Assembly (NCBI GenBank): GCA_947442505.1
Contig: CANEVR010000003.1
Location: 1-64,000 of the forward strand
From: Flavobacteriales bacterium
Lineage (GTDB): Bacteria > Bacteroidota > Bacteroidia > Flavobacteriales_D > Sanyastnellaceae
Length of the DNA stretch: 64,000 bases
Direction of reading: 5' to 3'
The position numbers and the translations under genes were made by a program. The stretch's first letter is position 1. Each line of letters starts with the position of its first letter. Shown in pieces: positions 12,579 through 28,746 of the stretch. Under the pieces are notes generated by a model that was given only the letters and a program-made list of their open reading frames with translations, had not been told where the DNA came from and did not search any database.

Positions 12579-12986
12579 TTATTCCGGAGAAATAAAATGC
12601 ATATCATCATGTTTGGATTGAATATCATTTTTCACAGCCCTAATGCGCAATGCCAAACGCAACAAGCTTTTTTCATCATGCTCCAACATCCATTGAGCAG
12701 CAGATTCGTCATTATCTGCGATTCGCGCAACCTTTTCTAGCAGAGCAAAATCAAACTTCACCAGCCACTGACAAGCTTGCTCGCGCCCCTCCGCGCATTC
12801 AACCAAGGCCATCAAATGCGGGAATTTATTGGTTAACAACCATTCTCTGGCTTCACGCTTGTGGTGCAGGGCAAAAACAAACAAAGCCAACTCAGGATAT
12901 CCATTGGACATCAACCAATCCCGGATCTCGTTGTTGCCCGTTATGGCCTCTGACCAGGCCAATATTATTTTCTCAGGATAAGCCAC
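12579..12986 (-). CDS. Small protein of four 25-residue W-L repeats, function unknown
   Basis: From the GTG at 12986 the product has 135 residues. Tryptophans fall at 24, 49, 74 and 99, exactly 25 apart, each followed by a hydrophobic residue (L, L, L, M). Every unit has the form xWL, seven or so polar residues, L, then an alanine-rich second half, which predicts two short helices per unit and a small alpha-solenoid. No signal peptide or membrane segment is seen. I do not recognise the family with certainty; it is probably a conserved Bacteroidota protein of unknown function. A longer TTG start at 13028 is possible. It ends 23 bases upstream of the pyrR start and is divergent from the DUF3078 gene. 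Confidence 0.7.
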   Translation of the reverse strand: MAYPEKIILAWSEAITGNNEIRDWLMSNGYPELALFVFALHHKREAREWLLTNKFPHLMALVECAEGREQACQWLVKFDFALLEKVARIADNDESAAQWMLEHDEKSLLRLALRIRAVKNDIQSKHDDMHFISPE

Positions 12987-13056: not shown

Positions 13057-14058
13057 ATGAAAAGAACAATTCTTTTTTCAATCATCATTATTTTGTCTTT
13101 TAAAACAAATGGCCAAATCATCCTTGGACCTGATGGTGAGAAATTAATCAAGAGTCCGTTTGAAGTTGTGGATCAAGGTTGGGAAGATCGAGGGGCTTTG
13201 TCCATTAACAGCACTCAAACATACCTTTCCCATTGGGCATCGGGCGGAAACAGTGCCTTTAATCTATCGGGATCTCTCAATTATGGAATCTTTTACAGAG
13301 ACAATAAGCACAGTTGGGACAATATCATCAACGCGGCCTATGGAAGATCTGTCATTGAATTGAATCAACCATCCGTCAAAACCGATGACAAATTGGATTT
13401 TACAACCAAGTACGGAAGAAGGGCCAAATACAATTGGAGTTATACCGCAATGTTCAATTTCAAAACCCAATTTGCAGGTGGATACATTTCAGGAAGTCGT
13501 GGCCTACCCGACTTGCAGAGAGGTAAAATATCCGATTGGCTTTCTCCCGCCTATTTCACAACTGCCATTGGAATGGACTATCTCCAACAACGAACAATTA
13601 CTTGCTTCATCTCTCCATTCACCGCAAAAGGCACCATAGTGAAAAATCAAACGTTGGCCGATATGGGCCAATTTGGAGTGAAGCCTGCAGTGAAAGATGG
13701 CAATGGCCAAATCATCCATCCGGGAGAAAATTTGAGGATGGAGTATGGTGCCTACATCCGAGTGGGACTCGCCAAATCATGGAAAGATCAGTACCGTTTG
13801 GATGCCAAACTGGAAATGTTCTCCAGCTACCTGAATAATCCTAAAAACATTGACTTCAACCTAGAAAGTGTTTTGGGATGTAAAATCAACAAATTCCTAG
13901 AATTTTCCGTAACCATGCAAATGATTTATGACGATGACGTCATTCTCATCAAACAAGCCGCTGGATTTAATGATAAAGGCATCGCCATACCAGAAATCAA
14001 GGGCCCTGGGCTTCAATTCAAGGAAGTTTTAGCCATTGGATTTCAATATTCTTTGTAA
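13057..14058 (+). CDS. DUF3078 outer-membrane beta-barrel protein
   Basis: The 333-residue protein has a signal peptide (MKRTILFSIIIILSFKTNGQ) and the DUF3078 hallmark LSHWASGGNSAFNLSG around residues 57-72. Alternating hydrophobic strands then run to a C-terminal aromatic end (IGFQYSL), as in outer-membrane barrels. The family is nearly confined to Bacteroidota and has no established function. Its stop codon overlaps the -33 part of the promoter for the ribosomal protein gene downstream. Confidence 0.88.
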   Translation: MKRTILFSIIIILSFKTNGQIILGPDGEKLIKSPFEVVDQGWEDRGALSINSTQTYLSHWASGGNSAFNLSGSLNYGIFYRDNKHSWDNIINAAYGRSVIELNQPSVKTDDKLDFTTKYGRRAKYNWSYTAMFNFKTQFAGGYISGSRGLPDLQRGKISDWLSPAYFTTAIGMDYLQQRTITCFISPFTAKGTIVKNQTLADMGQFGVKPAVKDGNGQIIHPGENLRMEYGAYIRVGLAKSWKDQYRLDAKLEMFSSYLNNPKNIDFNLESVLGCKINKFLEFSVTMQMIYDDDVILIKQAAGFNDKGIAIPEIKGPGLQFKEVLAIGFQYSL

Positions 14059-26461: not shown

Positions 26462-28122
26462 CCATCGGACTTCCTGAGTTGCTTTTTTTCATACTCATCG
26501 TCATTTACTGCATTACCCTTCCTAAAATATTGGCCCGAGCAGGTCAAAAATCTTGGATGGCCTACTTCCCTATTTTGCAATTTTTCCCATGGATGAAAGC
26601 CATCCAACGCCCTTGGTATTGGGCGTTGTTGATGTTGGTTCCAGGAGTGAATTTCATCATGATGGTGATTGCGCAAGTTGAATTGGGAATTGTCTTCAAT
26701 CAGCGCAGTGTCAAAGAACAGTGGATGTTTGGCGCCTTGCCTTGGTGGCGTTTGATACAACTTGCCTTTAAACAAGAAAACATTGAATATGTAGGTCCTA
26801 GGTCATGGGAAGGAAAGAAAAAAACATTCGCACGTGAATGGAGTGAAGCGTTATTGTTTGCTGTTGTTGCAGCTACAGTGATCCGCAGCTTCTTTCTAGA
26901 GGCCTTCACCATCCCTACGCCATCTATGGAAAAGAGCATGTTGGTGGGCGATTATTTGTTTGTCAGCAAATTCTCTTACGGAACTAAGTTGCCTCAAACA
27001 CCCATGAGCGTGCCATTCATGCACAATGCACTTCCATTCAGTGGAATGCCCAATAGCTATTTGGAATGGTTTACACTGCCCTACTACAGACTTCCTGGTA
27101 TTGGAAAAGTAGAACGATTCGACCCTGTGGTTTTTAATTTCCCCCACGGTGACACCATCTTGGTTGATCCCTATTATGCCGGACATGATTACTATGGTAT
27201 TTTGAGACAAGAGGCCATGTTCATGGCACAAGGATTTGACAACTATGCCAAAGATCCTGAGAAGTTCGAAGCATTGGCCAGAAAGAACTTTACAGAAAAG
27301 AAGGTTTGTGTTTCTTGTGCCGCACAAAAAGGTTTGAGAAAGGCTATGCCCATTGGAGGACTGCGTTACCGCCCCATGGATAAAAAAGAAAACTACATCA
27401 AGCGTTGCATTGGATTGCCTGGAGAAGAGATTAAAATCAAACACCGTCAAGTATTCATCAATGGACAAGCTGTTGAAAATCCGGAAGGATTGATGTTCAA
27501 CTATGAATTCTTATTGAAGAATCCTGCCTACGCTAATCGCATTCAAAGCAAGTACAGCATCAATATTGATGATTTAAACAATGTACCCGACTCATTGGGA
27601 CAACCTACCAGTGTTTTCACTTGTCCGCTTACTCAGGAAGTATACAATGAATTAAAAAACAATCCTGAAGTAGTTTGGATTGAAGCTCAGGATGAGGTTT
27701 TCAATCGCAACCCTCCCGGAACTTTGTTCCCCAACAGCTTGAATCCCGCATTCGAAAATTGGACGGTGGACAATTACGGTCCTGTTGTCATTCCTGCCAA
27801 AGGAATGAGCATTCCCATGAATGCATTGAACTATGAAATGTACCAAAGGGTGATTCGCGTTTATGAAGGGCATGACTTCACCCAGCAAGGAAATGACTAT
27901 TATTTGGATGGTCAAAAAGTTACCCAGTACACATTTGAAAGTGATTACTATTGGATGATGGGAGACAATCGCCACCACAGTGCAGACAGTCGTTTCTGGG
28001 GTTTTGTTCCGGAAAATCATGTGGTTGGAAAAGCTGTATTTACTTGGTTCTCCAAGGCTGACCCCAATTACCAAGGTCACAGCAAAATCAGATGGGACAG
28101 AATGTTTAAACTGGTGAATTGA
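26458..28122 (+). CDS. lepB: Signal peptidase I, long Bacteroidota form
   Basis: The 554-residue enzyme is about twice the usual size. An N-terminal DUF5684-like region has two hydrophobic helices (residues 1-80), followed by a third membrane segment before the catalytic part. The serine is S156 in TIPTPSMEKSM and the general-base lysine is K315 in YIKRCIGLPGEEIKI; the last box is GDNRHHSADSRFWGF. Serine and lysine are 159 residues apart, against 55 in E. coli (S90, K145), because of a large insertion that includes CVSC (C284, C287). The enzyme removes signal peptides at the periplasmic face of the inner membrane. Confidence 0.93.
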   Translation: MTIGLPELLFFILIVIYCITLPKILARAGQKSWMAYFPILQFFPWMKAIQRPWYWALLMLVPGVNFIMMVIAQVELGIVFNQRSVKEQWMFGALPWWRLIQLAFKQENIEYVGPRSWEGKKKTFAREWSEALLFAVVAATVIRSFFLEAFTIPTPSMEKSMLVGDYLFVSKFSYGTKLPQTPMSVPFMHNALPFSGMPNSYLEWFTLPYYRLPGIGKVERFDPVVFNFPHGDTILVDPYYAGHDYYGILRQEAMFMAQGFDNYAKDPEKFEALARKNFTEKKVCVSCAAQKGLRKAMPIGGLRYRPMDKKENYIKRCIGLPGEEIKIKHRQVFINGQAVENPEGLMFNYEFLLKNPAYANRIQSKYSINIDDLNNVPDSLGQPTSVFTCPLTQEVYNELKNNPEVVWIEAQDEVFNRNPPGTLFPNSLNPAFENWTVDNYGPVVIPAKGMSIPMNALNYEMYQRVIRVYEGHDFTQQGNDYYLDGQKVTQYTFESDYYWMMGDNRHHSADSRFWGFVPENHVVGKAVFTWFSKADPNYQGHSKIRWDRMFKLVN

Positions 28123-28125
28123 TCG

Positions 28126-28746
28126 ATGTACGCCGTTCCCACTTTTCTTTTCCCTCCGATATCTTATTGTCTTTTTTTACACCAGGCACATCCTCAAAAG
28201 GATGTGCTTTCTTTTTACCACAAACAAAGTCCGCGAAATCATTTCGAAATCCTAAATGCCAATGGAAGGCAAAAAATCACTTTTGGCATAAAGAGCAACC
28301 AAGGAATAAAAACGCCTTTGCAGGATGTCTATTTGGATGATGGAGATTGGGCTCGATCAGCCATTCGGTCCATTCAATCCGCTTATGGAAAGAGTGCTTT
28401 TTACTTTTTCTATCAGCACGAATTGGAAGACATGATGACTACCTTTCCTCAACAAAAACTGGTTGATGTGCACCAAACCATTCACCAATGGCTTCAACGC
28501 TATGGAATGGTTCCTGCATGGCCTCAAAACGATGAGGAATCGCAAATCATTCCAATAGAAAAAAAATGGGAGATATCATCTCCCATCTCTTCGTATCATC
28601 AAGTTTTTCAGGATCGCTTTGCGTTCCAAAATGATTTAAGCATTTTGGATTTGATGTTTAACCTAGGGCCTGAAGCCAAAAGTTATTTGGCTCATCATCC
28701 CCTCGTTATGCCTGTCCTTGAGGACCGCCAAAATGCATCGGCATGA
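28126..28746 (+). CDS. WbqC-like family protein
   Basis: The 206-residue protein matches the WbqC family pattern: an early Y(C)LF segment, NHFEILNANGRQKITFGI and a C-terminal SILDLMFNLGPEAKSYL. WbqC-type genes occur in polysaccharide clusters and also, as here, behind lepB in Bacteroidota; the activity is not established. It starts three bases after the lepB stop and ends inside the convergent DUF3467 gene, overlapping it by 41 bases. Confidence 0.8.
   Translation: MYAVPTFLFPPISYCLFLHQAHPQKDVLSFYHKQSPRNHFEILNANGRQKITFGIKSNQGIKTPLQDVYLDDGDWARSAIRSIQSAYGKSAFYFFYQHELEDMMTTFPQQKLVDVHQTIHQWLQRYGMVPAWPQNDEESQIIPIEKKWEISSPISSYHQVFQDRFAFQNDLSILDLMFNLGPEAKSYLAHHPLVMPVLEDRQNASA

Follow-up and report, generated by a model that had tools for sequence, protein, structure and literature searches.

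A short gene upstream of pyrR in a Flavobacteriales bacterium encodes a predicted alpha-solenoid protein with a 25-residue unit

We analyzed a stretch of 64,000 nucleotides from a Flavobacteriales bacterium (GenBank assembly GCA_947442505.1, contig CANEVR010000003.1, positions 1 to 64,000; hereafter the window) that contains a 135-amino acid reading frame at 12579-12986 on the minus strand. The frame starts with GTG at 12984-12986 and stops at 12579-12581. The same GTG start was found in close relatives, and more distant ones begin with an ATG, positioned identically or a few residues further upstream. On the same strand, both in the window and in relatives of its genus, pyrR follows the gene after 23 bp, and pyrB is also located downstream in the genus. 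Its divergent neighbour on the plus strand (13057-14058) encodes a DUF3078 protein, and several other genera have similar genes in the vicinity of the repeat gene. No Rfam family was found in the window. The features of the repeat gene, with residue numbers counted from the GTG start and conservation scored in 51 homologues, are as follows.

12579-12986, minus strand: gene for the 135-amino acid repeat protein, GTG start, stop codon included, identified as an open reading frame and by conservation
12897-12971, minus strand: unit 1, residues 6-30 (KIILAWSEAITGNNEIRDWLMSNGY), predicted helices 5-15 and 19-27, with W11 and W24
12822-12896, minus strand: unit 2, residues 31-55 (PELALFVFALHHKREAREWLLTNKF), predicted helices 31-40 and 44-52, with invariant E32 and W49, and R47 in 49 of 51
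12747-12821, minus strand: unit 3, residues 56-80 (PHLMALVECAEGREQACQWLVKFDF), predicted helices 56-65 and 69-77, with invariant E66 and W74, and H57 in 48 of 51
12672-12746, minus strand: unit 4, residues 81-105 (ALLEKVARIADNDESAAQWMLEHDE), predicted helices 81-90 and 94-102, with D91 in 47 of 51 and W99 in 41 of 51
12606-12671, minus strand: half unit and capping helix, residues 106-127, predicted as one helix, with invariant K119
12582-12605, minus strand: C-terminal tail, residues 128-135 (DMHFISPE), a lower-confidence coil with D128 and H130 invariant in 51 of 51

The reading frame is a genuine gene on which purifying selection acts strongly. Compared with two same-genus relatives, it differs at 14/3/51 and 13/5/58 sites by codon position, with a dN of 0.06, a dS of 1.3-1.8 and a dN/dS of about 0.04. 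The product is a 16-kDa protein with a pI of 5.5, and neither a signal peptide nor a membrane helix was apparent in its sequence. Frames of about 500 amino acids in some relatives were considered as fusion proteins and rejected; they are upstream extensions of the frame, with an ATG at the usual place.

The repeat protein has tryptophans at positions 11, 24, 49, 74 and 99, the last four spaced exactly 25 residues apart. Self-similarity of the sequence peaked at a lag of 25 (mean BLOSUM62 score 0.64), with lag 50 as the runner-up. The best-lag scores of 5,000 shuffled sequences averaged -0.54 (standard deviation 0.11) with a maximum of 0.04; none reached 0.64, placing the peak about ten standard deviations above the shuffles and bearing out the tryptophan spacing reported in an earlier note on this DNA. 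The best lag over the 51 homologues was again 25 (0.42), followed by lag 50. The earlier note had described four exact repeats, and this holds for the spacing and not for the letters, with identity at only 24 of 110 positions at lag 25. The spaced tryptophans are retained in most homologues (W24 in 50 of 51, W49 and W74 in all 51), W99 being the most variable. The period differs from the 34 residues of TPR and the 33 of ankyrin units, as had been pointed out. The unit number was constant in 51 of 51 homologues, with a core of 124-126 residues in every one.

We searched for relatives of the protein in a set of 60 related genomes, 46 of them of good quality. The gene was found in 55 of the 60 and in 45 of the 46 good-quality genomes, as a single copy nearly everywhere. 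A relative was present in 63 of 197 genomes sampled across the class when the profile of the protein was used, and in 65 with the profile of a sister branch. In a separate, evenly drawn set of 296 genomes from across the phylum only three had a relative, and the family is therefore restricted to part of this class. No relatives were found on phages, plasmids or viral contigs. We rejected a mobile-element or phage origin on this result; the PHROGs and PADLOC matches were fragments at chance level.

The branch that contains the window protein (A1) comprised 51 sequences, 36-89% identical to it, with an N-terminal Y-P-x-K-x-x-x-A-W-x-E-A motif and a C-terminal N-N-D-x-H motif. The sister branch (A2) occurs in other families of the class and is about 23-41% identical in aligned stretches; its C-termini vary, and a genome sometimes carries two or three copies, including a tandem pair. 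Homology between A1 and A2 is clear from profile comparison (27% identity, hhalign E of 8e-28, 122 columns aligned), and the two make up the halves of a single branch with good support (SH-aLRT 98). None of the genomes in the class sample carried both, as expected of lineage-specific orthologues.

AlphaFold2, with the 51 homologues as input, predicted an alpha-solenoid for the repeat protein with a pLDDT of 93.6 and a pTM of 0.86. The model has nine helices (5-15, 19-27, 31-40, 44-52, 56-65, 69-77, 81-90, 94-102 and 106-127) that alternate strictly, the predicted unit pairing a helix of 10 residues with one of 9, with turns of 3 residues between helices. The model contains four full units, the number given in the earlier note, and a fifth A-helix that continues into a C-terminal cap. 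Branch A2 was folded separately from 23 other sequences (pLDDT 93.5), and its helix boundaries matched those of A1 residue for residue up to position 102. The repeat protein is thus strongly predicted to be an alpha-solenoid with a 25-residue unit; the structure prediction supports the earlier reading of the fold, and no non-repetitive fold was predicted.

The best E-values in Foldseek searches of the PDB with the two branch models were 1.6 and 1.2, the A2 model being likewise without a match, and the TM-scores among the matches listed were 0.39 or lower. Against viral models nothing was convincing (best E 1.1). Because Foldseek can miss matches among all-helical repeats, the absence of a matching solved structure from the PDB is likely rather than proven. 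Searches of Pfam, NCBIfam (A1 only), PHROG, PADLOC and PDB sequences gave no match beyond chance for either branch, the best PDB sequence match by profile having an E of 0.098; weak matches to Ish1, SAM_3, UBA_7 and TQXA in Pfam and NCBIfam were set aside as scattered short stretches under the cut-offs. That the protein belongs to no named family, as had been suspected, is consistent with all of these searches.

We compared the protein with the known classes of helical repeat. The helix pairs of TPR and HEAT repeats are antiparallel and stacked, as in our model, but their units span at least 34 residues and have longer helices compared with the period of 25 here; no profile or fold match to either was found, and the Pfam scan returned no TPR match. 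The leucine-rich repeat variant (LRV, PF01816) has a similar unit length, its Pfam model having 26 positions. Alpha and 3-10 helices alternate in LRV, whereas both helices of the repeat-protein unit are alpha in the predicted model, each of 9-10 residues. The LRV model had no match in the whole genome.

Ankyrin units (e.g. PF13637) are likewise built as helix-turn-helix with the two helices in a similar register, but they have 33 residues, a beta-hairpin and a TPLH motif, compared to 25 residues, 3-residue turns and no strands here. It would be possible to derive one from the other if a degenerate ankyrin-repeat protein had lost the eight-residue beta-hairpin from every unit, which would shorten 33 residues to 25. 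When the unit was placed without gaps on an ankyrin consensus, the structurally equivalent position scored best, but its score (-2.2) was no better than that of shuffles (-2.8, standard deviation 3.7). Pfam Ank_4 was among the weak matches of 4 of the 51 members (best E 0.0093), but these fall under the curated cut-off and are at chance level for 51 scans, and the window protein itself had no ankyrin match in Pfam. No ankyrin chain appeared among the PDB fold matches listed, and ankyrin models in the viral library were found only at E above 1, making an ankyrin origin quite improbable.

The nearest kind is DUF4116 (Pfam PF13475), which has a 25-residue alpha-alpha unit and has also been modelled as an alpha-solenoid (PMC8078820). 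A 588-amino acid DUF4116 protein with many units 25 residues apart is encoded in the same genome (L144:906-2669, minus strand; contig C1, about 26905-28668), and DUF4116 matches were found in only 4 of the 60 related genomes. The identical period and the presence of this protein in the genome would fit a DUF4116-class protein that is short and has diverged. The DUF4116 protein is, however, an array of many units whose sequence (e.g. LEFASEELQADKEVVLEAVKQNG) is unlike that of the repeat protein. Comparison by hhalign gave E-values of only 0.61 and 0.25 over just 12-14 columns, and the unit profiles gave p-values of only 0.04 and 0.013 in a register that sets A helices against B helices. Pfam detected no DUF4116 in the repeat protein, and it was not among the matches listed in the DUF4116 search of the genome. 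We consider membership highly improbable, and on these profile comparisons there appears to be no convincing relation between the two. Nothing relevant on 25-residue bacterial solenoids was found in the literature beyond the DUF4116 model. The family, which comes from part of Bacteroidota, is without a name, while the 25-residue period alone is not unprecedented, DUF4116 being already in Pfam.

The position next to pyrR that the earlier note had pointed out holds for the window and close relatives, but genomes of other genera have no pyrR neighbour. We therefore rejected a link to pyrimidine control, the adjacency being limited to same-genus relatives. In several other genera an M16 peptidase gene adjoins the repeat gene or a DUF3078 gene lies nearby, and elsewhere the neighbours are unrelated. 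The variation of the neighbours suggests that the repeat gene behaves as an autonomous unit.

The surroundings of A2 were also recorded. A gene for a TonB-dependent receptor of about 840 amino acids precedes the A2 gene in several families, either directly or one gene away (L192, L195, L196, L199, L202, L203), and a conserved protein of 75-81 amino acids without Pfam match is often encoded directly after the A2 gene. The A2 genes of L189 and L197 follow genes for SPFH/Band_7_1 and zinc-ribbon-like proteins, and L189 carries a tandem pair of A2 copies. This neighbourhood hints at a link with the cell envelope. The C-termini of two A2 proteins (L201:5529-6014 and L204:6476-7012) are glycine-rich tails with GGGKW or GAGGLW as the last residues, similar to the tails of TPM-domain proteins.

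The conserved polar positions of the repeat protein vary from unit to unit and are therefore not explained by the repeat itself. The constant unit number, unlike that of open-ended arrays, suggests a defined binding surface. No enzyme-family match was found for the protein. Given the constant unit number, the unit-specific polar residues and the lack of a catalytic signature, we infer a small alpha-solenoid, soluble and cytosolic, whose size is fixed at four and a half units of 25 residues and which acts as a non-enzymatic docking module for one conserved partner, a reading to which we assign a probability of about 0.6. The Trp-Leu ladder in the B helices would form a hydrophobic spine between the units, and a surface marked by E32, R47, H57, E66, D91 and K119, together with the invariant C-terminal Asp-x-His tail, would hold the partner, which may be one conserved protein, peptide or other ligand. 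A point against docking is that the neighbours differ between families and point to no partner.

Alternatively, a catalytic or metal site might be formed by the conserved D, E, H, R and K residues, or these might be joined in structural salt bridges. If the protein were an enzyme or bound a metal, with E32, H57, E66, D91, K119, D128 and H130 forming a site as in the HEAT-repeat deoxyhypusine hydroxylase, this would account for the invariance of D128 and H130 in a poorly ordered tail and for the same place being taken by E66 and D91 in successive units. However, no enzyme family is similar, most of these residues differ in A2, whose C-terminus differs as well, and among the Foldseek matches listed deoxyhypusine hydroxylase reached no better than E 3.7, with a TM-score of 0.29. 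We regard a catalytic or metal-binding role as unlikely and favour the docking module.

We tentatively propose, at somewhat less than even odds, that the family may constitute a new alpha-solenoid subclass whose regular unit, very short with helices of 9 and 10 residues and turns of 3, is absent from the PDB, and that it has a core role in the cytosol as a regulator or adaptor restricted to part of Bacteroidota. The 16-kDa size, high predicted order and regular 25-residue unit make the protein a convenient target for crystallography, and it is a possible compact scaffold for repeat-protein design. A single-copy gene present in nearly all genomes of the order, under strong selection and with a confidently predicted fold without a PDB match, highlights the repeat protein as a good candidate for an overlooked core function.
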